Below, piece by piece: positions 46,882 to 60,122 of a stretch of 64,000 nt of DNA. The position numbers and the translations under genes are program-made. The notes beneath the pieces were generated by a model. The model worked only from the letters and a program-made list of their open reading frames with translations. It was not told where the DNA came from and searched no databases. The DNA is taken from positions 2,750,501 to 2,814,500 of the forward strand of contig NZ_JACHMZ010000001.1 of the NCBI RefSeq assembly GCF_014205165.1. Reading direction: 5' to 3'. Position 1 is the stretch's first letter; every line of letters starts with the position of its first letter. The DNA comes from Micromonospora carbonacea. GTDB lineage: Bacteria > Actinomycetota > Actinomycetes > Mycobacteriales > Micromonosporaceae.

Positions 46882-47847
46882 TCAGGCCTCCACCAGGTAG
46901 GAGAAGACGCTCTCCAGGGACTCGTCCTCGGGCACCAGTTGGCGCACCCGGACGCCCTCCCGCAGGGCGATCTTCGGCAGCGCGCGGGTGAACGCGCCGT
47001 AGTCGCCGGCGCGCACCGTCAACCCGGCGCGGCCAAGCTCGACGCCCGCCACCGACGCCTCGGCCATCAGCGCCACGGCGAGCGCCCGGTCGTCGGTGGA
47101 GCGCACGGTGAACACGTGCGGCCGGTTGGTCATCAGCCGTCGGATGGTGCGGAAGTCACCGGAGGCGGCCAGCCGGCCGGCGACCATCACCTGGACCGTC
47201 CCGGAGACCTGCTCGACCTCCTCCAGGATGTGCGAGCTGAACAGGATGGTGCGGCCGGCGTAGCCGAGGCGGTGCAGCAGCTCCATCATGTGCAGCCGCT
47301 GCCGGGGGTCCATCCCGTTGAACGGCTCGTCGAGCAGCAGCACCTGCGGCTCGTGCACCAGCGCGGCGGCCACCCGGGCGCGCTGCCGCATGCCCTTGGA
47401 GTAGGTGCCGATCCGGCGGTCCTGCGCGCCCTCCAGCTCCACCAGGGCGATCGCCCGGCGGGCCGCGGCGGCCGGGTCCGCGAGCCGGTGCAGCTTCGCG
47501 CTGGCCAGCACGAACTCGTACGCGGTGAGGAAGGTGTGCACCGCCTCCCGCTCGCTGACCAGGCCGAGCCGGCGGTAGACCTCGGGGTTGCGCCAGGTGG
47601 GCCGCCCGCCGAGGGTCACCATCCCGCGCGACGGGGCCAGGAAGCCCGCCATCATGTGCAGCAGGGTCGTCTTGCCCGCGCCGTTGGGGCCGAGCAGCCC
47701 GGTGACCCCGGGGCCGAGGCGCATGCTGACGTCGTTGACGGCCACCACGTTGCCGTACCAGCGGGAGACGCCCGCGAGGTCGAGGTCGAGGGTGCCGGGG
47801 TCGGCCGTGGGTGCCGCCGCCGGCGGGGCGGCGCTGGTCGTGGTCAT
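46882..47847 (-). CDS. ABC transporter ATP-binding protein
   Basis: 321 residues. Walker A is GLLGPNGAGKTTLL, the signature is YSKGMRQRARVAAALVHEP, Walker B is VLLLDEPFNGMDP, and the H-loop is FSSHILEEVEQ. A C-terminal 90-residue domain (VFTVRSTDDRALAVALMAEA) is as in drug-exporter type ATPases. Start chosen at ATG 47847, which overlaps the preceding permease stop by 4 nt (ATGA). Powers the permease at 46166 or 47844. Confidence 0.93.
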   Translation of the reverse strand: MTTTSAAPPAAAPTADPGTLDLDLAGVSRWYGNVVAVNDVSMRLGPGVTGLLGPNGAGKTTLLHMMAGFLAPSRGMVTLGGRPTWRNPEVYRRLGLVSEREAVHTFLTAYEFVLASAKLHRLADPAAAARRAIALVELEGAQDRRIGTYSKGMRQRARVAAALVHEPQVLLLDEPFNGMDPRQRLHMMELLHRLGYAGRTILFSSHILEEVEQVSGTVQVMVAGRLAASGDFRTIRRLMTNRPHVFTVRSTDDRALAVALMAEASVAGVELGRAGLTVRAGDYGAFTRALPKIALREGVRVRQLVPEDESLESVFSYLVEA

Positions 47848-48725
47848 CGGGCGGCCACCTTCCGGTATCGACGCAGCAGCAGGGCGACGCAGCCGGCCAC
47901 GAGCAGCACGGCGACGACCGCGTAGACGGGGCCGAAGCCGCCGACCGGGACGCCCTGCTGGTCCTCGGTGACCAGCAGGTCGCCGAGCGCCCAGGAGCCC
48001 ACGCCGCCGACCAGCGTCGACGGCGAGGCGAGGAAGGCCAGCTCGTTGACCGTCCGGGAGGGCATGACCGACAGGGTGCCGACGATCGGCGTGGTCATCA
48101 GGAACACGGCCACGATCCCACCGGCCGCGAACGCCCGCTTGCCGGTGAGGGAGGCGACGAGCAGCCCGACCGAGGCGAAGACCGTCGCCCACAGCCCGGC
48201 GTAGAGCAGGCTCGGCAGCAGGTCGAGCAGCTCGTCGGCGACGCCGCCCATGCCGTCGCCGGTGCTGAAGGCCGCGCCGAGGAACATCACGAGCTGCGGC
48301 CCGCCGAGCAGCAGCCAGAGCGCGGTCGCCAGCGCCAGCAGCTTGGCCAGCGGGTAGTCCGCGCGCGGCAGCGGCCGGGAGAAGTAGAGCGGCAGCACCC
48401 CGCTGCGCAGGTCACGGGAGACCAGCTCGGGCGCGGCCACCGCGACGAAGAAGATGACCAGCCAGCTCATGTTGTCGGCGAACTGGGCGTACGTCATCAC
48501 CGCCTCGCCGATCTGGGCGCGGATGGCGGTGAGGGCGGCGGCGACCGCCGTGACGATGCCGACCACCAGCCACGGGAAGATCTTGGCCTTCGCGCTGCGC
48601 CCCAGCCCGAACGCCGTCCGCAGGCCGTGCAGGTAGAGCGCGCCGAAGACGGCCCGGCGGCCGAGCCGGGGGCCGGTGTACCGCTGGTAGCCGATGTCGT
48701 GGATGACGCCGGTCGGCTCAGGCAT
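47844..48725 (-). CDS. ABC-2 type transporter permease
   Basis: 293 residues. The N-terminal GVIHDIGYQRYTGPRLGRRA is a motif found in permeases of this exporter group, followed by six hydrophobic segments including IFPWLVVGIVTAVAAALTAI and MSWLVIFFVAVAAPELVSRD. LRSGVLPLYFSRPLPRADYP is the conserved cytoplasmic region. Overlaps the upstream ATPase gene by 8 nt and the downstream one by 4 nt. Confidence 0.9.
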   Translation of the reverse strand: MPEPTGVIHDIGYQRYTGPRLGRRAVFGALYLHGLRTAFGLGRSAKAKIFPWLVVGIVTAVAAALTAIRAQIGEAVMTYAQFADNMSWLVIFFVAVAAPELVSRDLRSGVLPLYFSRPLPRADYPLAKLLALATALWLLLGGPQLVMFLGAAFSTGDGMGGVADELLDLLPSLLYAGLWATVFASVGLLVASLTGKRAFAAGGIVAVFLMTTPIVGTLSVMPSRTVNELAFLASPSTLVGGVGSWALGDLLVTEDQQGVPVGGFGPVYAVVAVLLVAGCVALLLRRYRKVAAR

Positions 48726-49632
48726 GGCTGGGCTCCCTCGTGGCGAAGAGTTCGGCCACCCGGTGCCGGCGCTGGTCCAGCCGGTGCAGCGGCAGGTCCA
48801 GCTCGGCGACCGCGCCGAGGATCAGGTCGTAGGTGGCGTCGTCGACGAGCTCGACGAGCAGCAGCCGGCCGTCCCGGCGCACCGGCAGGCCGAGCGCGCC
48901 CAGCCGGGCGGCCAGCTCCTCGGTGCCCTCGCTGACCTCCACGGCGAGCACGTCGGTGGCGGAGGTCATGGCGGAGATGTGGTCGGCGCGCAGCAGCCGC
49001 CCGCCGTCGATGGCGACGAGGGTGTCGCAGATCCGCTCCACCTCGCCCAGCAGGTGCGAACAGACCAGCACGGAGATGCCGAACTCGGTGCCGATGCGGT
49101 GCACCAGCGTCAGCATCGCGTCCCGGCCGGCGGGGTCGAGGCCGTTGGTCGGCTCGTCGAGCAGCAGCAGGTCGGGGTCGTGCACGAGGGCCTGGGCCAG
49201 CTTCACCCGCTGCTTCATGCCCGTGGAGTAGCCGCCGACGGGCCGGTAGCGCTCCTCGTAGAGGCCGACGTGGCGCAGCGCCTCGGAGGCCCGCTCCCGG
49301 GCGACCGTACGCGGCAGGCCGCTGACCCGGCCCAGGTGGGTGACCAGTTCCGCGGCGGAGAGGTCGGGCGGCAGCGCGTCGTGTTCGGGCATGTAGCCGA
49401 CCCGGGCGCGGACCCGGGCGGAGTCCGTGGTCGGGTCGAGGCCGAGCACCCGGGCCCGGCCGCTGGTCGGGGTGAGGAGGCCGAGCAGGATCTTGATCAG
49501 GGTGGATTTGCCGGCGCCGTTCGCGCCGACCAGCCCGATGATCCCCGGTTCGACCGCGACGGTCAGGTCGGCCAATGCCGTGACCGCGCCCCCGTACGTC
49601 TTGGTCAGCGACTCGGTCGCGATGAGTGTCAC
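48718..49632 (-). CDS. ABC transporter ATP-binding protein
   Basis: 304 residues. Walker A GLVGANGAGKSTLIK, signature YSTGMKQRVKLAQALVHDP, Walker B LLLLDEPTNGLDP, and H-loop VCSHLLGEVERI. The start VTLIATESLTKTYGGAVTAL begins exactly at the conserved first strand. GTG 49632 lacks a strong ribosome binding site, so this first gene of the four-gene operon may be translated from a short leader. Two non-identical ATPases and two permeases suggest a heteromeric exporter or two related ones. Confidence 0.92.
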   Translation of the reverse strand: MTLIATESLTKTYGGAVTALADLTVAVEPGIIGLVGANGAGKSTLIKILLGLLTPTSGRARVLGLDPTTDSARVRARVGYMPEHDALPPDLSAAELVTHLGRVSGLPRTVARERASEALRHVGLYEERYRPVGGYSTGMKQRVKLAQALVHDPDLLLLDEPTNGLDPAGRDAMLTLVHRIGTEFGISVLVCSHLLGEVERICDTLVAIDGGRLLRADHISAMTSATDVLAVEVSEGTEELAARLGALGLPVRRDGRLLLVELVDDATYDLILGAVAELDLPLHRLDQRRHRVAELFATREPSHA

Positions 49633-50132
49633 GCCGTACAGCGTAGGGACCGGGGGTCGCCTGTGGCCGGCGCACCACCCCGGGCGGATCCCTGAACTTC
49701 CCGGCCGGCTCCCCCTAGGGTCCCGCAGCCACGCCGGCCGGCCCGGGGCCCCGCCGGGCGGGAAAGTCACCCGGACCGGGTGAGCCGGCCTCATCCCCGC
49801 CGGGCGCAGCATGGCCGTGTGCGTCTCCGGGTTCCGTGGCCGCCGCGGCGGGTTCGGCCGCGTCGGCGCTCGGCGGGAGACGGCCGCGACAGCGCAGGCA
49901 GCAGGCGGGCGAAAGGTGGGGAGCATGACGGTTCGGGACACGACGGTCCGGCGGCGCGGCGGCGTGCTGCACGTGGTCGGGTCACCCGGTGGCCCACGCC
50001 CCGGTCGGGCGTGGCCGGGCCGCCGGGGCCTCACCGCGCAGCGGCACGGCCCGGCCGGTCCGCCGCGCCGCGACGACGACCGCCGGTGACGGGCACCGGC
50101 ACCGGACACGACAGACCTACGGGGGTGGGCAG
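49633..50132. other. 500-bp region with little coding evidence
   Basis: Separates the divergent ABC operon from the DUF2267 gene. It holds one possible small ORF (49925-50089). I see no tRNA, no clear operator and no convincing promoter boxes. A GGGTT-N16-GGGTTC sequence near 49829-49855 is a weak SigF-type candidate. Confidence 0.4.
49925..50089 (+). CDS. Possible small basic protein, 54 aa
   Basis: MTVRDTTVRRRGGVLHVVGS begins a short basic frame preceded by AAAGGTGGGGAG. The rest is Arg/Pro/Gly-rich without recognisable structure, so it may be non-coding. Ends 43 nt before the DUF2267 gene. Confidence 0.3.
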   Translation: MTVRDTTVRRRGGVLHVVGSPGGPRPGRAWPGRRGLTAQRHGPAGPPRRDDDRR

Positions 50133-50561
50133 ATGGCTGAGCAGCTGATCTCGGCGTTCGAGAGCTCGCTGGACAAGACCAACCTGATCCTGAAGGACAT
50201 CGAGGCCGCGTACGGCTGGCCCAAGGAGCAGCGCAACCAGTCGTACGCGGCCCTGCGCACGGTGCTGCACCTGCTGCGCGACCGGATGCCGGTGCAGGAG
50301 AGCGTGGAGTTCGCCGCGCAGTTGCCGGTGCTGCTGCGGGGCATCTACTTCGACGGCTGGCAGCCGTCGGACGTGCCGATCAAGCTGAACCGCGACGACT
50401 TCCTCTACGAGGTCCGCCAGGGCTTCCCGTACGACGTCGAGGGCGGCCCGGAGCGCGTGGTCCAGGTGGTGCTGGACACCCTGCGCCGGCACGTCACCCA
50501 GGGGGAGTGGGAGGACGTCCGCTCCACCATGCCCGGGGACCTGGCCCAGCTCGTTCCCTGA
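50133..50561 (+). CDS. DUF2267 protein
   Basis: 142 residues, helical. The family signature is present: WPKEQRNQSYAALRTVLHLL, RDRMPVQESVEFAAQLPVLL, RGIYFDGWQPS and a second similar half (GGPERVVQVVLDTLRRHVTQ). DUF2267 proteins are widespread in actinobacteria and associated with stress responses, but the mechanism is unknown. GGGGGTGGGC precedes the ATG. A bidirectional terminator follows. Confidence 0.88.
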   Translation: MAEQLISAFESSLDKTNLILKDIEAAYGWPKEQRNQSYAALRTVLHLLRDRMPVQESVEFAAQLPVLLRGIYFDGWQPSDVPIKLNRDDFLYEVRQGFPYDVEGGPERVVQVVLDTLRRHVTQGEWEDVRSTMPGDLAQLVP

Positions 50562-50581
50562 CGGGTCCCGACCGTCGGCCG

Positions 50582-50623
50582 GCCGCTCCCGACAGCGGCC
50601 GGCCGGCCGCTGTCGGGAGCGGC
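50582..50623. terminator. Bidirectional hairpin terminator
   Basis: Perfect 19-bp stem: GCCGCTCCCGACAGCGGCC (50582-50600) and its complement at 50605-50623, 4-nt loop, between the convergent DUF2267 and MFS genes. Confidence 0.9.
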
Positions 50624-50625
50624 GG

Positions 50626-51906
50626 TCACGCCCGCGCCGGGCGGTCGGGCCGGCCGACGGGCGGTCGGGTCGGCGGGCGGTCGTCGACGGTGAGGCCGTG
50701 CAGCACCGCCACGGCGGCGAGCGGGAACAGGGCGGCGACGGCGAACCCCGGCCCGAAGCCCAGCCCCGCCACCGCCAGCCCGAACAGCGGCGGGGTGGCC
50801 GTGGCGGCCACGTTCTGCAGCACGGTCTGTGCGCTGGTGGCCCGGCCCGCCCAGCTCGCGGGGGCCACGTCCGCGACGGCCGCGTACGCCACGCCGTGCC
50901 AGCTGACCGTGGCGACGAGGGCGACCAGCAGCAGCGGGGCCGCCGGCGGGGCGTGCAGCGCCTCGGCCACGGCGAGGGCCCCGAGGGCGGCGGCGGTGCC
51001 GGCGGCGATGATCCGCAGCGGCCGTAGCCGCTGGCTGGACCGGTCGGACCAGCGGCCGGCGAGCACCCGCGTCGCCGCCGCCACGAGCTGCGCCCCCGCG
51101 ATCAACGGCCCGGCGGTGCGCACCGGCCAGCCGCGTTCGGTGACGAGGTAGTCCAGGGCGTACGCGCCGACGACGAACTGCGCCACGACCAGCAGGGCAC
51201 TCGCCCCGTGCACCCGCCACAGCGTCGGTGACCGGTACGGCGACGGCACCCGCGCCCCGCCCGTGCCGGTTCCGCCCGAGCCCGCACCGCCCGAGCCCGC
51301 ACCGCCCGTGCCGGCGGCGGCCGGGGCCACGCCGGTGCCGGGCCGTGGCCCGTCGACCAGCAGCAGGGCGGCCACGATCCCGGTCAGCGCGCAGACCGCG
51401 GCGGCGGCCAGCAGCGCCAGCCGGGGGCCGCCGCCGGAGTCGGCCAGGACCGGCAGTGCCGCCGAGGCCGCCGCCACGCCCAGCGGCTGCGACGTCTGCC
51501 GGATGCCCATCGCCAGGCCCCGCTCGCCGGGCGCGAACCAGCCGGTCACCACCCGGCCGCTGGCGGCGTACACGGCGGAGCCGGCCGCCCCGGCGAGGGT
51601 CAGCAGCACGAACAGGGCCGGCCCGGCGGCGTGGGCGGCGGCGGCCAGGAACGCGGCCCCGCCGGTCAGGCCGAGGCCGATGACGAGGCGCTCGCCCCGC
51701 CGGTCGGCGACGACGCCCCAGCCGATGAGGGCGAGCACCATGCCGAGGCTGGGGCAGGCCACCAGCAGCCCCAGCTCCCACAGCGGCAGGCCGGTGGCGC
51801 GGCGTAGCGCGGGCAGCAGGAACGGCAGCCCGTAGAGGTAGAGGGTGCCTGCGGTCTGCGCGGCGGTGCCGATGCCGAGCATGACCCAGCGGCGGGAGTC
51901 GGCCAT
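50626..51906 (-). CDS. MFS transporter
   Basis: 426 residues with twelve predicted membrane segments. The MFS motif A is seen as GWGVVADRRGERLVIG between TM2 and TM3, and RVLAGRWSDRSSQRLRPL is the equivalent in the second half. The central cytoplasmic loop contains a Gly-rich stretch (GTGGAGSGGAGSGGTGTGG), apparently repeat-expanded. The start MADSRRWVMLGIGTAAQTAG is near an interrupted palindrome in the promoter region. The substrate is unknown; small-molecule import is as likely as efflux. Confidence 0.88.
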   Translation of the reverse strand: MADSRRWVMLGIGTAAQTAGTLYLYGLPFLLPALRRATGLPLWELGLLVACPSLGMVLALIGWGVVADRRGERLVIGLGLTGGAAFLAAAAHAAGPALFVLLTLAGAAGSAVYAASGRVVTGWFAPGERGLAMGIRQTSQPLGVAAASAALPVLADSGGGPRLALLAAAAVCALTGIVAALLLVDGPRPGTGVAPAAAGTGGAGSGGAGSGGTGTGGARVPSPYRSPTLWRVHGASALLVVAQFVVGAYALDYLVTERGWPVRTAGPLIAGAQLVAAATRVLAGRWSDRSSQRLRPLRIIAAGTAAALGALAVAEALHAPPAAPLLLVALVATVSWHGVAYAAVADVAPASWAGRATSAQTVLQNVAATATPPLFGLAVAGLGFGPGFAVAALFPLAAVAVLHGLTVDDRPPTRPPVGRPDRPARA

Positions 51907-53667: not shown

Positions 53668-53694
53668 GGTTAGAGAAGATCGCGCCGGGGGTAC
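53668..53694 (+). promoter_or_regulatory. SigB/SigF-type promoter before the repeat peptide gene
   Basis: GGTTA (53668-53672), 16-nt spacer, GGGTAC (53689-53694), 62 nt before the ATG. Confidence 0.6.
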
Positions 53695-53756
53695 CACCCG
53701 TCGCACGACGAACCCCCGCCGCGCGGCGGGGCGGGAACTTGGCGAGGGAGCACCGC

Positions 53757-54062
53757 ATGGCACTCAACGACGACGACATCCAGACGACCAGCGGCGGTGG
53801 CCTGGAGGGCCCGGCCGACGGCGGCGCGACCCCCGGTCAGCAGGACGGCGGGGCCGACGGTGGCGCGGAGGGCCCGGCCGACGGCGGTGCCACCCCGGGC
53901 CAGCAGGACGGCGGGGCCGACGGCGGTGCCGAGGGTCCGGCCGACGGCGGCGCGACCCCCGGTCAGCAGGACGGCGGGGCCGACGGTGGCGCCGAGGGTC
54001 CGGCCGACGGCGGTGCCACCCCGGGCCAGCAGGACGGCGGCGCCGACGGCAGCGCCGTCTGA
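53757..54062 (+). CDS. Asp/Gly-rich repeat peptide (candidate multi-core peptide substrate)
   Basis: 101 residues. A 16-residue leader MALNDDDIQTTSGGGL is followed by four copies of a 21-residue repeat (residues 17-37, 38-58, 59-79, 80-100) that read EGPADGGATPGQQDGGADGG plus Ala. There is no Cys, Lys, Arg, His or aromatic residue. At DNA level copies 1 and 3 share one set of silent choices and copies 2 and 4 another, so a 126-bp pair was duplicated while the protein was conserved. GGGAG lies 7 nt before the ATG. The JmjC oxygenase gene starts 9 nt downstream. No signal peptide is seen. A modified-peptide precursor role is inference. Confidence 0.8.
   Translation: MALNDDDIQTTSGGGLEGPADGGATPGQQDGGADGGAEGPADGGATPGQQDGGADGGAEGPADGGATPGQQDGGADGGAEGPADGGATPGQQDGGADGSAV
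53805..54056. repeat. 63-bp tandem repeat, four copies in an A-B-A-B order
   Basis: Copies start at 53805, 53868, 53931 and 53994. Copies 1 and 3 contain GCGACCCCCGGTCAGCAGG, while 2 and 4 contain GCCACCCCGGGCCAGCAGG. Confidence 0.9.
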
Positions 54063-54071
54063 CGCCTCGCG

Positions 54072-55346
54072 ATGACGATCACCGACCCGCCGGGCGGCCA
54101 CGGCCGCCCGGCGGTCCCGTCTGCCGCCGCCCGCGCCCTCGCGCGGTGCGTCGCCGTCGAGCCGGGCAAGTTCGCCGCCGCCCACTGGGGCCGGTCGCCG
54201 CTGCTGTCCCGCGCCGCCGAGCTGCCCAACGCCGACGGCTTCGCCGACCTGCTCAGCCCCGCCGACGCCGACGAGCTGCTCAGCCGGCGCGGGCTGCGTA
54301 CCCCGTTCCTGCGCGTCGCCAAGGACGGCCAGCTCGTGCCCGCGGCGCGCTGGACCGGCGGCGGCGGCGCGGGCGCCGAGATCGGCGACCAGGTCCTCGA
54401 CGAGCGGATCCTGGAGCTGTACGCCTCCGGCGCGACCCTGGTGCTCCAGGGCCTGCACCGCACCTGGCCCGCCCTGATCGACTTCGCCCGCGACCTCGGC
54501 GCGGCCCTCGCCCAGCCGTTGCAGGTCAACGCCTACCTGACCCCGGCCGGCAGCCAGGGCTTCGCCACCCACTACGACACCCACGACGTCTTCGTGCTCC
54601 AGGTCGACGGGCGCAAGCACTGGCGCATCCACCCGCCAGTGCTGCCCGACCCCCTCGAACGCCAGCCGTGGGGCGGCCGGGCCGACGAGGTCTCCGCGAC
54701 CGCCCAGGGCCCCGCCGCGCTCGACGTGGTCCTCGAACCGGGCGACGCGCTCTACCTGCCGCGCGGCTGGCTGCACAGCGCCCAGGCCCAGGACAGCAGC
54801 TCCCTGCACCTGACCGTCGGCATCCGGGCGCTGACCCGGTACGCCATCGTCGAGGAGCTGCTCGCCCTCGCCGCCGCCGACGCCCGGCTGCGCGCCGGCC
54901 TGCCGTTCGGCACCGACGTGGCCGACCCCGACGCGATCGAGCCGGAGCTGACCGAGACCGTCGAGGCGCTGCGGGACTGGCTGCTACGCGCCGACCCGGC
55001 CGCCGTGGCCGCGCGGCTGCGGGAACGGGCCTGGCCGGCCGCCCGGCCCGCCCCGATCCGGCCCCTCGCCCAGGCCGCCGCGCTCGCCGCCGTCGACGCC
55101 GACACCCGGCTCGCGGCCCGGCCGGGGCTGCGCTGGCGGCTCGACCCGGCCGGCGACGACAGGGTCGCGCTGCGCGTGTTCGACCGGGTGCTCACCCTGC
55201 CCGCAGGATGCGGGCCGGCGCTGCGCGCGCTGCTCACCGGCGCGGTGAGCCGGGTGGGCGACCTGCCCGGCCTCGACGACGACGCCGACCGGGTCGTCCT
55301 GGCCCGCCGGCTGCTGCGCGAGGCGATCGCCGTCCCTGCGGAGTAA
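54072..55346 (+). CDS. JmjC/cupin_4 2-oxoglutarate-dependent oxygenase
   Basis: 424 residues of the ribosomal-oxygenase-type (YcfD/NO66/MINA53) family. Fe(II) ligands: His167 and Asp169 in FATHYDTHDVFVLQVDG and the distal His235 in GDALYLPRGWLHSA; RKHWRIHPP provides the 2-oxoglutarate-binding Lys region. A C-terminal helical/winged-helix part follows, as in the family, with AGCGPALRALLTGAVSRVGD. Known relatives hydroxylate Arg or His of ribosomal proteins; here the gene sits 9 nt after the Asp/Gly repeat peptide, so that peptide is the likely substrate and Asp a plausible target. No strong ribosome binding site, which fits coupling. A hairpin overlaps its end. Confidence 0.88.
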   Translation: MTITDPPGGHGRPAVPSAAARALARCVAVEPGKFAAAHWGRSPLLSRAAELPNADGFADLLSPADADELLSRRGLRTPFLRVAKDGQLVPAARWTGGGGAGAEIGDQVLDERILELYASGATLVLQGLHRTWPALIDFARDLGAALAQPLQVNAYLTPAGSQGFATHYDTHDVFVLQVDGRKHWRIHPPVLPDPLERQPWGGRADEVSATAQGPAALDVVLEPGDALYLPRGWLHSAQAQDSSSLHLTVGIRALTRYAIVEELLALAAADARLRAGLPFGTDVADPDAIEPELTETVEALRDWLLRADPAAVAARLRERAWPAARPAPIRPLAQAAALAAVDADTRLAARPGLRWRLDPAGDDRVALRVFDRVLTLPAGCGPALRALLTGAVSRVGDLPGLDDDADRVVLARRLLREAIAVPAE

Positions 55347-55396
55347 GGAAGGGCACCCTGTTAACGCCTTCGGTATAGCAGGGGCCCCTTCCTAAC
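55344..55396. terminator. AAGGGCCC hairpin repeat, copy 4
   Basis: Arms GGAAGGGCACCCTG (55347-55360) and CAGGGGCCCCTTCC (55379-55392) with two mismatches and GTTAAC in the loop. Begins at the TAA of the JmjC gene and can terminate the peptide/JmjC unit. Confidence 0.75.
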
Positions 55397-55467: not shown

Positions 55468-56133
55468 TCAGCGGGCGATGACCAGCAGCACGCCGGTCGT
55501 CACCACACCCGCCACCAGGACGACCGTGATCGGCCGGGGCGACAGCACCGCGTGCCGACGGTCGGCGAGCCGCTTGGCCAGGGCCAACCCGACCAGCGGG
55601 CCGAGCAGGGTCACCACCAGCGCCAGCACCGGCAGGCCCACCGCCAGGTCCCCGCCGTTGCGGGCCCCCAGCGCCCGCGCGCCCAGGCCGAGCGCGAACA
55701 TCAGCGCCGCGCCCACCACCCCGCACAGCGCGAGCAGCGGGTTCGCCGAAGCGGGCAGCTCGCCGGGCTGCCGGGTGCGGTCCAGCAGCCCGCGCACCCC
55801 GTGCAGCAGCAGCAGCGGGTCGCCCGAGGCGTCCCGGGCCGGGCCGGGCGGGTCGCCGAGCCGGCGGGCCCCCGAGCCCAGCCGGGCCCGCAGCTGCTGC
55901 CACAGGTGGGCCGCCTCGGCGTCCACCCGCTCCACCAGCTCCCGCGCGTCGGCCGCCTCCCGCTCGGCCTCGCGCAGCTGCTCGGCGGCCTCGGCGACGG
56001 CCCGTTCGGCGGCGGCGCACTGCTGCTCGTGCCAGGCGTGGGCCTCGGCGCGCTGGGTGCGCACCCGGTCGGTCAGCTCGGCCAGCCGCCGCACCTGCGC
56101 CGCGTACGTCTCACTGGTCACCGGTTCGTTCAC
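55468..56133 (-). CDS. Coiled-coil membrane protein of the FtsK-like module
   Basis: 221 residues. Residues about 1-95 are a charged coiled coil (AQVRRLAELTDRVRTQRAEA; AVAEAAEQLREAEREAADAR ELVERVDAEA). The C-terminal half has membrane segments ALCGVVGAALMFALGLGARA, VGLPVLALVVTLLGPLVGLA and TVVLVAGVVTTGVLLVI. It is coupled to the upstream FtsK-like gene by a GTGA overlap. It could anchor the ATPase to the membrane. No named family recognised. Confidence 0.75.
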   Translation of the reverse strand: MNEPVTSETYAAQVRRLAELTDRVRTQRAEAHAWHEQQCAAAERAVAEAAEQLREAEREAADARELVERVDAEAAHLWQQLRARLGSGARRLGDPPGPARDASGDPLLLLHGVRGLLDRTRQPGELPASANPLLALCGVVGAALMFALGLGARALGARNGGDLAVGLPVLALVVTLLGPLVGLALAKRLADRRHAVLSPRPITVVLVAGVVTTGVLLVIAR

Positions 56134-58814
56134 GCCGACGGTCCGTAGGGGATGATGACCTGCCCGGTGCGGTGCGCCGCCCGGTCGAAGAAGAGCCCCC
56201 GCCACGGCCGGGGATACCAGTCGGGGCCGCCGGAGCCCGGGTAGAGCGACGAGCCCAGCTCGCCGCCCTGCACGTCGAGGGCCACCCACGCGCCGATCTG
56301 GTCGGTGCGGGCGGCCGGCCCGCCGAGGTCGACCCGCATCCGGGCCACGCCGCGCCACCAGGCCAGCACGTGGGTGCGCCGCTCCGGGCCGTCGTGCAGG
56401 ATGCGCCGCAGGTGCTCCAGCCCGGTGCGCCCGCCAGAGCGCGCGGCCAGCCGGCCGGCCGCCGCGTCGACCGCGTACAGCAGCAGGTAGTGCGGGGTGG
56501 CGGGGGTGCCCGGCCGGTCCAGGGCCGCGGCCGTCTCGGCCATCAGCTCCGGCACGGTCTCGTCGTCGTACCAGGCGGCGTCGTCGGCCAGGTCGGCGTA
56601 GAGCTCCCGGGCGGCCGGGTCGGCGTCGGGGTCGAGGCAGGCGATGGAGTACCGGGCCGCGCCGGGGCGGTGCTGGCGGGCCAGCGACCGGGCGGCGGCG
56701 TCCAGCACGGCGCACGCCTCGTCGACGCGGGTGCCCAGCACGGCGAGGTTGCGCCCGGGGGCCCGGGGCAGCCGCAGCGCCGCCGAGCGGGCCTGCACGT
56801 CGATGATCTCCCCGAGCAGGGCCACCGGGCTGCGCGGCGTCCCGTCGCCCTCGGGCGGGGTGAGCGCCCGGAAGTCCGGGGCGTCGGCGAGCCGGGGGAT
56901 CGCGTCGCCGTCGAAGAGGCGGGCGGGCTTCGCGTCGGCGGGGCGCATCCGCCACAGCCGGTGCTGCAACTCGCTCCACTCGTCCCAGTCGCTGGCCGAC
57001 GGGATGCGCGCCACCTCGTTGCCCTCGACCAGGCCCGACTCGGCGTTGACCACCGCGTGGTGGCGGGGCAGCGACTGGGCGGCGTCGTTGCGTTCGGCGA
57101 GGATCCGCAGCGCCTTGGGCAGCGCGATGCGCAGGGTGAACTGGGCGACCAGCGCCGGCCGCCCCCACAGCGCCTCGATGCCGCGCACGTCCTGCGAGGC
57201 CAGCACCAGGTGGATGCCCTGGGAACGGCCCCGGCGGGCCAGGTCCTCCAGCAGGTCGGCGGCCTCCCGGGCGACCACGTCCCGCCCGGCCAACAACGCC
57301 TGGAACTCGTCGACCACGGCGACGATGCGGGGCCAGTGCCCGGTCGGGTCGACCGCCCGCAGCTCGGCCAGCTTGGTCACCTCGTGCTTCTTCGCCGCGT
57401 CGGCCCGCCGGCGCAGCTCCTCGGCGAGGAACCGCAGCAGCGCGAGCCCGAACTCCCGGTCGGTGTTGACGTTGATCCCGACCAGCCGCATGTGCGGCAG
57501 CCAGCTCGGGTCCCGCCGACCCTGGGCGAACCGGGCGAAGGACACCCCCTCCTTGAAGTCGAGCAGGTAGAACTCCAGCTCGGCGGGGGAGTAGCGGGAG
57601 GCCAGCGCCCCGATCCAGGCGAAGATCAGGTTGGTCTTGCCGGTGCCGGACGGGCCGCCGATCAGCGCGTGCGGCGGGTAGTCGCCGAGATTGAGCAGCA
57701 CCGGGCGGCCGTGCGGGCCCTCGCCGATGGGCGCGGTCAACCCCGTCGAGGAGTCCTCCCGCCACATCTGCTCCGGCGGCGGCAGCAGGTCGGTGAACGG
57801 GGTCGGCGGGGGGCCGGCGTTGACCCGGGCGGCGACCTGCCGGCAGGTCTCGGTGACCAGCGTGGCCGGCGGCGGCGGGTCCAGGGTCACCGGCAGGCCG
57901 GGCGGGACGCCCACCCGGGCGCCGTCGGGGCCCACCACGACGCGGGTCACCGTCGGGTCGTCCGGCACCGGCACGCCGCGGACGACCAGGTGCACCCCGC
58001 AGGCGGCGCCGGTGCGCACCACCCGGTCGAGCTGGCCGCGCTCGTGCCGGGACAGCTCGTCGCCGCCGAGCAGCACCGCGACCCGCCACGGCTCGGGGCG
58101 GCGGCCGGTCGCGGCGGCCAGCTCCCGCAGCGAGCGGTACTCCCCGGCGAGCACGGTCTCGTTGATCCGGCGGATCTGCTCCACCAGGTCGTCCAGCAGC
58201 CGGCCCAGCCCGCCGGGGCCGACGAAGGTGAGCAGCCCGGCGGTGCCCAGCGGGGCGAAACCGGCCAGGCCGCCCCCGAGACGCTCCGGGTCGTAGCCGA
58301 ACAGCCGCACCGCGCCCGGGTCGGCCCGGCCCAGGCTGCGCAGCAGCAGCGCCGGCACCACGGCCGCCCCGCCGTCGGCCCCGGCCCCGGACAGGTGCAC
58401 GTGCCCGGCGTCGAGCAGCGGCACGAGCGCCGGCACCGGTTCCGCGCCGGGGATGCGCACCGTGCCGACGCGTACGGCGCCGGGGGTCTCGCCGCGACCG
58501 GCCGGCGTCGCGGTCCACTGCGCCCAGTCGGCGCTGGCCGCGCCCGGCGCCTCCCGGCGGGCGGCGTCGACGGCCCGGCGGGCCAGCTCGGCGATCCGCG
58601 CGGTGTGCCGGGCGTCGATCTCGGCGAGCCGCCGGTCCCGCTGCGCCCCCACCTTCGCCGGCACGGCCGCCGCGGCGCGCTGCACCCGGGCCAGCCGGTC
58701 CCGGGCGGCGGCCAGCTCGGCGTCGGCGTCGGCGAGCCGGTGCCGGGTGGCGCCCAGCGCCTCGGAGAGCATGCCCCGCACCCTGGTCACCAGCTGGGTG
58801 CGGCGGTCAGCCAT
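56130..58814 (-). CDS. FtsK/SpoIIIE-type ATPase with N-terminal coiled coil
   Basis: 894 residues. Residues about 1-85 form a coiled coil (RHRLADADAELAAARDRLAR); 120-350 are a degenerate ATPase-like domain without a P-loop; 370-620 are an FtsK/SpoIIIE motor with Walker A GGPSGTGKTNL (386-396) and Walker B RIVAVVDEFQALL (Asp502-Glu503); HLVLASQDVRGIEALWG is the sensor. The final 250 residues resemble a third, degenerate ATPase module. It has no membrane segments, unlike FtsK and EccC, and no gamma DNA-reading domain. It lies between a membrane coiled-coil protein and a large helical protein, in a cluster that also has a WXG100-sized protein. Substrate (protein or DNA) is unknown. Confidence 0.85.
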   Translation of the reverse strand: MADRRTQLVTRVRGMLSEALGATRHRLADADAELAAARDRLARVQRAAAAVPAKVGAQRDRRLAEIDARHTARIAELARRAVDAARREAPGAASADWAQWTATPAGRGETPGAVRVGTVRIPGAEPVPALVPLLDAGHVHLSGAGADGGAAVVPALLLRSLGRADPGAVRLFGYDPERLGGGLAGFAPLGTAGLLTFVGPGGLGRLLDDLVEQIRRINETVLAGEYRSLRELAAATGRRPEPWRVAVLLGGDELSRHERGQLDRVVRTGAACGVHLVVRGVPVPDDPTVTRVVVGPDGARVGVPPGLPVTLDPPPPATLVTETCRQVAARVNAGPPPTPFTDLLPPPEQMWREDSSTGLTAPIGEGPHGRPVLLNLGDYPPHALIGGPSGTGKTNLIFAWIGALASRYSPAELEFYLLDFKEGVSFARFAQGRRDPSWLPHMRLVGINVNTDREFGLALLRFLAEELRRRADAAKKHEVTKLAELRAVDPTGHWPRIVAVVDEFQALLAGRDVVAREAADLLEDLARRGRSQGIHLVLASQDVRGIEALWGRPALVAQFTLRIALPKALRILAERNDAAQSLPRHHAVVNAESGLVEGNEVARIPSASDWDEWSELQHRLWRMRPADAKPARLFDGDAIPRLADAPDFRALTPPEGDGTPRSPVALLGEIIDVQARSAALRLPRAPGRNLAVLGTRVDEACAVLDAAARSLARQHRPGAARYSIACLDPDADPAARELYADLADDAAWYDDETVPELMAETAAALDRPGTPATPHYLLLYAVDAAAGRLAARSGGRTGLEHLRRILHDGPERRTHVLAWWRGVARMRVDLGGPAARTDQIGAWVALDVQGGELGSSLYPGSGGPDWYPRPWRGLFFDRAAHRTGQVIIPYGPSA

Positions 58815-59853
58815 CGGACCCCCGGCCGGCGGCTCGCCCGGTGGGCGGTGCGGGCGGCACGGGAGGCAGGCCCTGCGCGGCCCGCTCCCGGGCGGCGCGT
58901 TCGCGGTCCGCCCGTTGCCTGGTCGCCTCGTCCCAGGCGTCGCGCTCGGCCTCGCGGCGCTTCTGCTGCGCGGGCCCGTTCTCCCTGCCGGCCTGCCCCT
59001 CGTCGCGGGGCAGGTCCCTGCCGAGGCGGTCCAGCAGCACGGCGGTGACCACGCCGGCGGTGACGGCGGCGTCGGCGGCGTGCGGCTGCTCCTCGCCGCT
59101 GCCGCGCGGCGGCGGGGGCATCCGGCAGACCCGGGTCAGCAGCGTCTCCAGCACCGGCGGGGGGAGCCCGGGCAGCAGGTCGCGCACCCGGCCGTCCAGC
59201 TCCCGGCGCAGCCGGGGCAGGTCGTCGGCGCGGGGCGGGTGCCCGAGCAGCTCCCCGGCCAGCTCCCGCAGCAGCGGCGGGGCGAGCGCGGCCAGGCCGA
59301 GGCCGACGTCGGCGTGCGCGGCGCGCAGCTCGCGGTGCAGCCGCTCCCGGTCGCCGCCGCGGACCCCGTCGGCGACCCGGCGCAGCAGCTCCCGGGAGTC
59401 GCCGATCCGCTCGTCCGGCTCGTCCGGCGCGCCCTCCCGGCCGCCGGTCAGCTCCGCGACCCGCACCGCCCACCAGCGGCGCAGCACCGGGTTGTCGTCC
59501 GGCGCCGGGGGCGGCCCGTCGCCGGCGGCGGGCGGCGCGTCGCGCGGGGCGTCGTGCACCTGCCGGTCGCCGGCCGGGCGGGCCGGTGGCGCGCCGTCGG
59601 GGGCCAGGCCGATGGCCGCGAGGTACGCCGACAACTGCTCCTGGGCCACCCGCAGCGCGTGCCCGGCGGACTCGGCGTGCTCGACGGCCGCGGAGAGCTC
59701 CGGCACCCCCATCGGGTTGGCCGACTCCTGCCGCACCCAACGCAGCCGCTCCGTGGCCTGGCCGAACTTCTCCAGCGCGAGGGCGAGCTGGGCCAGCGGG
59801 AACTCCTCCGCTGCGGCCCGCACCTGGGCCCCGACGTCCTCGATGATCGACAC
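58807..59853 (-). CDS. Helical protein of the FtsK-like module
   Basis: 348 residues, unrecognised. Three parts: an N-terminal helical domain (LAQLALALEKFGQATERLRW; VPELSAAVEHAESAGHALRV) similar in size and pattern to WXG100-type helical hairpins; a Pro/Asp-rich linker (about 90-120); a long helical, charged C-terminus with DAWDEATRQRADRERAARER. It ends 8 nt into the FtsK-like gene. The GTG start lies 8 nt after the small helical gene at 59862. A role as substrate adaptor or partner of the ATPase is inferred only from the position. Confidence 0.7.
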   Translation of the reverse strand: MSIIEDVGAQVRAAAEEFPLAQLALALEKFGQATERLRWVRQESANPMGVPELSAAVEHAESAGHALRVAQEQLSAYLAAIGLAPDGAPPARPAGDRQVHDAPRDAPPAAGDGPPPAPDDNPVLRRWWAVRVAELTGGREGAPDEPDERIGDSRELLRRVADGVRGGDRERLHRELRAAHADVGLGLAALAPPLLRELAGELLGHPPRADDLPRLRRELDGRVRDLLPGLPPPVLETLLTRVCRMPPPPRGSGEEQPHAADAAVTAGVVTAVLLDRLGRDLPRDEGQAGRENGPAQQKRREAERDAWDEATRQRADRERAARERAAQGLPPVPPAPPTGRAAGRGSDG

Positions 59854-59861
59854 GCCCGGCC

Positions 59862-60122
59862 CTACAGGGTCGAGACGTAGAGTTGCGCCTGCTCCACCGC
59901 GACGAGGGTGGCCGCGAGGCACTCCTCGAGCTCCTGGCTGGCCTGGGTCAGCGAGGCCTGCGCCGCCTCGACGGTCTCGTGCCCGCTGCCCTCCAGCGCC
60001 CCGGCGAGGGTCTGCTGCGCCTCGGCCAGCTTCTCGCCGGCCGCCTGCACTGCGGTCTGCCCGTCACCGATCTGTTGCAGGGCGACATCGATGGCTGCCT
60101 TCAGCTCGGCGACGCTCGCCAC
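59862..60122 (-). CDS. WXG100-sized helical-hairpin protein
   Basis: 86 residues, almost entirely helical: AELKAAIDVALQQIGDGQTA and then VQAAGEKLAEAQQTLAGALE, a turn at GSGHET, and VEAAQASLTQASQELEECLA with a final VEQAQLYVSTL. Length and two-helix layout match ESAT-6/WXG100 proteins, but the WXG turn is replaced by GSG. Such proteins are secreted by type VII systems together with FtsK-like ATPases. AGGAGG lies 5 nt before the GTG, the best ribosome binding site of the cluster, as expected for an abundant product. One Cys near residue 68 is unusual for this kind. Secretion is not shown. Confidence 0.75.
   Translation of the reverse strand: MASVAELKAAIDVALQQIGDGQTAVQAAGEKLAEAQQTLAGALEGSGHETVEAAQASLTQASQELEECLAATLVAVEQAQLYVSTL

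Follow-up and report, generated by a model that had tools for sequence, protein, structure and literature searches.

An acidic repeat peptide paired with a NO66-like JmjC oxygenase in Micromonospora carbonacea: a candidate peptide-hydroxylation system of Actinomycetota

The window analysed here (a stretch of 64,000 nucleotides from Micromonospora carbonacea, contig NZ_JACHMZ010000001.1, positions 2,750,501 to 2,814,500, in a genome of 7.5 Mb on one contig) encodes a 101-residue Asp/Gly repeat peptide directly followed by a JmjC-type oxygenase resembling NO66. The oxygenase is proposed to be the dedicated hydroxylase of the adjoining acidic peptide, beta-hydroxylating the aspartate residues of its repeats, with a metal or redox role suggested for the product, a reading to which a probability of about 0.57 is given. 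The initial annotation, made from the letters alone, had put the two genes forward as a candidate peptide-modification system, which is supported by the repeated cores of the peptide and the co-evolution of the adjacent enzyme. The features of the pair are as follows.

53757..54062, + strand: Asp/Gly repeat peptide, candidate precursor and substrate, 101 residues (open reading frame (ORF) reading, homologue and profile searches)
53757..53804, + strand: leader MALNDDDIQTTSGGGL, 16 residues (L3, N4, D5, D6, D7, Q9, G13 and G15 invariant in 28 Micromonospora peptides)
53805..53867, + strand: repeat 1, EGPADGGATPGQQDGGADGGA (ORF translation)
53868..53930, + strand: repeat 2, EGPADGGATPGQQDGGADGGA (ORF translation)
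53931..53993, + strand: repeat 3, EGPADGGATPGQQDGGADGGA (ORF translation)
53994..54056, + strand: repeat 4, EGPADGGATPGQQDGGADGSA (ORF translation)
54072..55346, + strand: JmjC (PF08007) oxygenase, NO66-like, 424 residues, presumably Fe(II)/2-oxoglutarate dependent
54570..54578, + strand: putative metal ligands H167 and D169 (H-x-D), invariant in 45 aligned rows
54774..54776, + strand: putative metal ligand H235, invariant in 45 aligned rows
55062..55343, + strand: C-terminal region of the oxygenase (residues 331–424), candidate leader-binding site (model secondary structure and NO66 alignment)

The ORF at 53757–54062 bears out the architecture first described, a 101-residue peptide with a 16-residue leader and four repeats of 21 residues, and ends with a final Val after repeat 4. 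The repeats had also been called identical, which stands for repeats 1 to 3 at the protein level but fails for repeat 4, where the end is DGSA and not DGGA. The peptide has a net charge of −19, with 12 Asp in total over the four repeat blocks, and the sequence GAGGGAG lies 5′ of its ATG (53744–53750). Between its stop codon (54060–54062) and the ATG of the JmjC gene (54072) lies the gap of 9 nt that had been reported, and both ORFs share one reading frame. There are 7 nucleotide differences between repeats 1 and 2, all of them third-position and synonymous, while the ratio of nonsynonymous to synonymous polymorphism (pN/pS) is 0.10 for within-genome repeat pairs and 0.47 for the leader across genomes, as compared over 28 of the 30 Micromonospora loci (L227 and L232, with no peptide by the pattern, were left out). 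The repeats are thus under purifying selection. The short ORF could instead be no substrate but an attenuator-type leader peptide, through which translation or transcription of the JmjC gene is controlled, as it is short, directly upstream and in frame, and as no evident ribosome-binding site is seen by eye at the JmjC start, a situation found in translational coupling. However, attenuators conserve codons and RNA structure, not repeated protein motifs, whereas here the protein sequence is kept while synonymous change is free, taxa differ greatly in repeat number and length, and a simple scan gave no terminator-like site; this explanation is hardly probable.

Among 7988 candidates scored, 165 proteins are homologous to the peptide at E ≤ 0.001, and the named organisms among the 120 matches listed are all actinobacterial. 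The peptide matches no Pfam or NCBIfam family at E ≤ 0.1. Some homologues carry the name 'BatC protein', a literature search on which gave nothing. In one record (P0035) the peptide runs straight into the N-terminus of the JmjC protein, possibly through a frameshift, and the adjacency of the two is visible there as well.

The oxygenase matches PF08007 with an E value of 8e-30, and its closest relatives are found in Micromonospora, including M. haikouensis at 95–96% identity. The intact H-x-D...H ligands claimed for it (His167, Asp169 and His235) are all present and invariant in the 45-row alignment, which includes the window's own sequence. The predicted structure aligns to NO66 over model residues 12–424, i.e. 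a full-length NO66-like fold, and the closest solved relatives are ribosomal oxygenases (ROX), whose fold family is marked by the same ligands and by the JmjC, dimerisation and winged-helix architecture that the predicted fold displays. By this fold the enzyme belongs to the same family as the JmjC PF08007 enzymes NO66/RIOX1, MINA53/RIOX2 and YcfD. Residues 331–424 stand, in the model, at the position of the C-terminal domain labelled winged-helix in NO66, MINA53 and YcfD (PMC6006756), and may be where the leader binds.

The peptide profile matches 41 of 295 Actinomycetes genomes and the JmjC protein matches 99 of them (E ≤ 1e-10), while 14 weaker JmjC matches in this sample were left unread (13 unfetched and one inside L095). 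Each of the 41 peptide genomes carries a JmjC gene downstream of the peptide, in the same orientation and on the same contig, the two matches being separated by −38 to 296 bp. The pairing is not due to chance, and the Fisher p-value for the linkage ignores the relatedness of the genomes. Conversely, the peptide is found by profile in 41 of the 47 genomes with a close JmjC gene, and degenerate repeat peptides occur in four of the remaining six (G021, G023, G144 and G249). A scan of named genomes through the JmjC protein alone gave at least 590 confirmed stretches, 80 of which were kept and read; the peptide is present in 76 of these, while, of the four peptide-less loci, three offer fewer than 300 bases upstream of the JmjC gene and the other one (L188, Arsenicicoccus) comes from the same assembly as G236. 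The two samples overlap, as the named loci L186, L188 and L218 are the assemblies G144, G236 and G060, and one named record (L199) is titled Bacillus sp. AZ43 and flagged UNVERIFIED_ORG. The co-occurrence check across other genomes that the initial annotation had proposed is therefore passed from both directions. The pair is found in genera including Streptomyces, Arthrobacter, Nocardioides, Blastococcus, Janibacter, Terrabacter and Brevibacterium. Within Micromonospora the peptide is matched by profile in 60 of 61 genomes and the JmjC protein in 56 of 61 (E ≤ 1e-60), the five JmjC-negative genomes being assemblies of 420 to 990 contigs, so the pair is close to a core feature of the genus. In a phylum-wide sample a JmjC match (E ≤ 1e-60) occurs in 11 of 246 genomes, only two of which lie outside class Actinomycetes; both of these loci (L251 and L252) carry an upstream Asp/Thr- or Asp/Gly-rich ORF, with the leaders TDEQIRTTWRED and EDEDIVTTWRED, and a downstream Suc_Fer-like match. 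The cassette is thus sparse outside class Actinomycetes and nearly a core-genome feature in Micromonospora.

The upstream peptides were sorted over 101 JmjC loci (the window and 100 fetched) by regular expressions which were written after viewing the same loci, so that the class counts are descriptive, and three assignments were corrected by hand (L104 to B, L142 to D, and L138 from D to none). Class A, with the motif GGADGG, comprises 45 of the 101 loci; class B (9 loci) has an LxDDDM/ITT-type leader and DADGTDGDATD-type repeats; class C (17 loci) consists of precursors of about 35 residues, MDPIEVEVEDLAEVTSRDITAGGDSDGTDSSSDFI and variants (VTSRD...GDSDGTDSSSDFI); and class D (14 loci) has an LVVAVEDI-type leader and a SDGGGTGRSDTND-type core. 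All four classes are Asp-rich, and L105 is an A/B mixture in which EGPADSVEG stands together with DGDGSDGDATD. The patterns of A, B and C occur nowhere else on either strand of the 2.79 Mb of locus DNA, while the looser pattern D has 14 other matches there. Ten proteins, comprising class B, C and D precursors and three other upstream ORFs, gave no family match above the curated cut-off.

On a maximum-likelihood tree of 96 JmjC proteins (five rows shorter than 300 residues were dropped), the five labels, 'none' counted, need 9 changes, compared with 48.3 when shuffled. Class A together with two exceptions forms one branch (support 99/97), class B another, in which L102 is the sole unpaired row (100/100), and class C a third, joined by L114, whose upstream flank is cut off by the contig end (100/100); class D falls into two branches. 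The peptide class thus follows the JmjC clade, which is matched evolution. No such peptide accompanies four JmjC genes (L096, L101, L111 and L124) that belong to another clade within the same order. These results weigh on the explanation that the enzyme acts on a ribosomal protein, as NO66, MINA53 and YcfD do, while the repeat ORF encodes a peptide with its own structural or regulatory part, linked to the enzyme only by the operon. Its closest solved relatives being ribosomal oxygenases, and the near-universal presence of the pair in Micromonospora being as expected for a housekeeping enzyme, are in line with such a role, but the tracking of JmjC clade by peptide class over four classes is hard to explain without handling of the peptide, and the peptide-less genes of the other clade also speak against it, so that this explanation is quite unlikely. 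Unlike NO66, MINA53 and YcfD, the enzymes studied here have an Asp-rich repeat peptide encoded next door, and their clades follow its classes.

The residue that would be modified by the proposed hydroxylase was approached by comparing 121 class A cores, in which D, G and A are required by the search pattern; the presence of these three in every core is therefore no evidence by itself. The other residues occur in varying numbers of cores (P in 113, E in 104, H in 102, S in 88, T in 85 and Q in 43), the histidine usually standing directly before DGGADG. The repeats had been described as free of Cys, Lys, Arg, His and aromatic residues, which is true of the window peptide but does not extend to the family, where His is present in 102 of the 121 cores. 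Within these pattern-bounded cores, four (L069, L171, L196 and L199) hold only D, G, A and S, and that of L069 only D, G and A. In Micromonospora the residue preceding DGGADG is Q, H or R, while the JmjC proteins encoded there share at least 85% identity with the window's. Aspartate would thus be the only ordinary side-chain target common to all class A cores, and the interchange of Q, H and R, together with the four D/G/A/S-only cores, makes it the likeliest target as judged from these sequences. Beta-hydroxyaspartate is a known modification of ribosomally synthesized and post-translationally modified peptides (RiPPs), made by other enzyme types (PMC13060819, PMC13097080), and FIH, a 2-oxoglutarate hydroxylase, is stated to hydroxylate an L-Asp residue (PMC9814778). 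Alternatively, the enzyme may hydroxylate the histidine before DGGADG in most species, the Gln and Arg forms of Micromonospora being modified weakly, elsewhere or not at all; the frequency of this histidine and the predicted fold, which is that of histidyl hydroxylases, suit such a target. It is nevertheless distinctly improbable, as the position varies among Q, H and R in Micromonospora, with enzymes at least 85% identical to that of the window, the window peptide lacks any His, and four cores consist of D, G, A and S alone.

In the proposed mechanism the peptide would be held by the JmjC protein while its repeats pass the Fe(II) site. Recognition in Micromonospora may proceed through the LNDDD[I/M]QTT leader and the C-terminal winged-helix region of the enzyme, and where the leader differs, the repeat itself may be what is recognised. 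The beta-carbon of the repeat aspartates would then be hydroxylated using Fe(II), O2 and 2-oxoglutarate. With up to 12 Asp in its four blocks, the product would be a hydroxylated ribbon of high acidity and flexibility, present constitutively in the cell, which might bind iron or another metal or cooperate with an electron carrier. The leader positions L3, N4, D5–D7, Q9, G13 and G15 are kept in 28 of 28 Micromonospora peptides, and the leader is conserved within this genus, though not across the whole peptide family. Leader recognition by the enzyme is accordingly uncertain. The analysis establishes the ORFs, their linkage, purifying selection acting on the repeats, the co-variation of peptide class with enzyme clade, the intact ligands and the NO66-like predicted fold, whereas the identity of the substrate, the Asp target, the mode of recognition and the metal or redox role are inferred.

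Several observations weigh against the proposed Asp hydroxylation. The nearest characterised enzymes, NO66, MINA53 and YcfD, hydroxylate His or Arg of ribosomal proteins (PMC6006756), and most relatives carry a histidine at the repeat, which might there be the residue hydroxylated. A crude pattern for a DD(D)[M/I] leader near the start matches only 34 of the 121 class A peptides, many of which start otherwise (e.g. MTNPEQDPNQQ or MSDSSL), so that leader recognition in that form is not general. In an AlphaFold2 (AF2) read-through tandem model, leader residues 1–10 have a mean predicted local distance difference test score (pLDDT) of 64, with a strand at residues 9–12, and the rest of the peptide scores about 30–35; the leader value is low, the chains were joined artificially and strand pairing is not visible. 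Two of the 47 close-JmjC loci (L081 and L086, from genomes G062 and G236) carry a different acidic ORF, and 16 of the 101 JmjC loci have none of the four peptide classes. Finally, no Suc_Fer match is found in the window's genome, so the partner gene considered below is not obligatory. The upstream ORF of L081 and L086 is a non-repeat acidic peptide ending in DDPEL.GADL.EDQ..G.GPT.EPGA, an apparent replacement of the usual one.

Beside class A, only the peptide, the JmjC gene and a Suc_Fer-like gene recur at a constant place (34 loci in the Suc_Fer cluster). The Suc_Fer-like gene lies 3′ of the JmjC gene in 30 of 45 class A and 6 of 9 class B loci, and downstream of it in 62 of the 80 named loci, while three class D loci have a relative of it; these counts, made by BLAST against crude ORF calls, are lower bounds. 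Four examples run against Pfam match PF06999 (E = 1e-15 to 3e-19). In class C, where as in class D the partner counts come mostly from loci with only about 3 kb per side, a relative of a gene carrying the FhuF 2Fe-2S C-terminal domain lies nearby in 11 of 17 loci (PF11575 in the one tested). Suc_Fer-like proteins can be [2Fe-2S] proteins, and FhuF reduces ferric siderophores. The presence of such genes alongside the pair, taken with the hydroxyaspartate idea, suggests iron or another metal, and the lack of a Suc_Fer partner in the window's genome leaves this metal or redox role at low confidence. It is possible, though doubtful, that the Actinomycetota cassette of peptide, ROX-type JmjC protein and, often, Suc_Fer-/FhuF-like protein makes beta-hydroxyaspartate chains serving as an intracellular iron-binding or redox-active polymer, a ribosomal counterpart of the hydroxyaspartate siderophores, the role of the actinobacterial NO66-like enzymes then being modification of peptides and not of the ribosome.

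The layout of a RiPP system is found here, with a ribosomal precursor made of leader and core next to a candidate modifying enzyme, and by analogy the pair is a candidate RiPP-like class. A classical multi-core RiPP, with the leader cleaved and short hydroxylated cores exported as signals or antibiotics, would agree with Asp hydroxylation on the chemistry and differ from it on processing and role. A leader, repeated cores and an enzyme are at hand, as the initial annotation had noted, and all 17 class C loci have a prolyl-oligopeptidase (S9)-like gene upstream (PF02897/PF00326 in the one tested). On the other hand, clustering of crude ORF calls over 61 loci gave no protease or exporter recurring at a constant place beside class A, which agrees with the earlier remark that none adjoins the pair, and a secondary metabolite of sporadic occurrence would not be expected in 60 of 61 Micromonospora genomes. 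The layout stands but does not by itself establish a processed, secreted product, and this explanation is rather unlikely; the same near-universal presence makes a role of the peptide in core cell physiology likelier than one as a sporadic antibiotic.

Other JmjC enzymes have been linked to ribosomal precursors. BipG and PbsQ are JmjC-type oxygenases acting on the precursor of biphenomycin-type RiPPs; their target is an Arg-derived Orn, and their clusters also encode an MNIO and a B12-radical SAM enzyme (PMC12707348, PMC12257519). The likeness lies in the pairing of a JmjC enzyme with a ribosomal precursor peptide (here a candidate substrate); unlike in the biphenomycin clusters, the JmjC gene is the only modifying gene recurring here, and the window peptide is without Arg or Lys. 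The clustering showed recurrence of the peptide, JmjC and Suc_Fer-like genes alone, with no name-based search made for MNIO, B12-radical SAM or arginase genes. Among RiPP enzymes that produce beta-hydroxyaspartate, the target of PesHI is Asp21 of its precursor, and that of SmaO lies at the N-terminus of a linear graspetide precursor (PMC13060819, PMC13097080; SmaO as cited in PMC13097080), whereas here a NO66-like enzyme would act on four blocks containing 12 Asp. Bacterial JmjC homologues (about 30% identity) of eukaryotic JmjC proteins fused to a RiPP recognition element (RRE) have been placed in RiPP-like contexts (PMC12710340), in a passage that deals neither with Asp-rich repeat precursors nor with the peptide–JmjC pair, its distribution or a Suc_Fer-like partner. 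The available part of PMC10783134 likewise contains no description of the pair, and a literature search, whose coverage leaves out most subscription papers, gave no account of Asp-rich repeat precursors with JmjC enzymes.

If Asp hydroxylation of the peptide is correct, many actinobacterial genomes encode hydroxylated acidic peptides of a hitherto undescribed class, produced by NO66-like JmjC enzymes, and the numerous orphan JmjC proteins of bacteria that carry the annotation 'cupin' or 'NO66' would gain a substrate. The L069 core would be among the simplest possible substrates for studying Asp hydroxylation, and JmjC chemistry would be tied to a recurrent iron-sulphur partner.

Class C (L098–L100, L109, L113, L115–L120, L122, L125, L127, L128, L130 and L131) is a compact cassette of an S9 oligopeptidase-like gene, the short precursor, the JmjC gene and often an FhuF_C-type gene, with a relative of PF01648-type phosphopantetheinyl transferases in 6 loci. 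The Arg preceding the core suggests, from the sequence, cleavage at that point, and class C is a candidate for a separate RiPP class. The neighbours in class D (L108, L110, L112, L123, L126, L129, L132, L134–L136 and L139–L142) include relatives of aldo/keto reductase genes in 5 loci and of HTH-DUF5753 regulator genes in 6. Distant JmjC genes also stand beside what look by eye like a TfuA-type gene (L095) and a LanB/thiopeptide-type gene (L089).

Upstream of the peptide two conserved elements are found in an alignment of 24 of the 30 Micromonospora loci.

53668..53682, + strand: conserved box GGTTAGAGAAGATCG, candidate promoter or operator (each base in at least 95% of aligned upstream regions)
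53688–53699, + strand: GGGGTACCACCC, following the box and conserved upstream of the peptide

The box GGTTAGAGAAGATCG occurs as a single copy genome-wide when up to 1 mismatch is allowed, and a simple promoter (sigma-70 type only) and terminator scan was empty. Right 3′ of the JmjC stop, an inverted repeat GGAAGGGCACCC...GGGGCCCCTTCC at 55344–55395 was seen by eye and was not called by the terminator scan. Further downstream, the minus strand at 56130–60122 encodes an EccC/FtsK-like ATPase, a 370-residue protein without Pfam match and a weakly WXG100-like protein of 85 residues. These type VII secretion system (T7SS)-like genes were considered as a part of the system and rejected, since they stand next to the pair only in the three Micromonospora among the 61 clustered loci and thus reflect synteny. 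The minus strand also carries, at a distance of 2 to 7 kb upstream of the pair (46882–51906), ORFs that by eye resemble two ABC ATPases, a membrane protein and a major facilitator superfamily (MFS)-type transporter and do not adjoin the pair.

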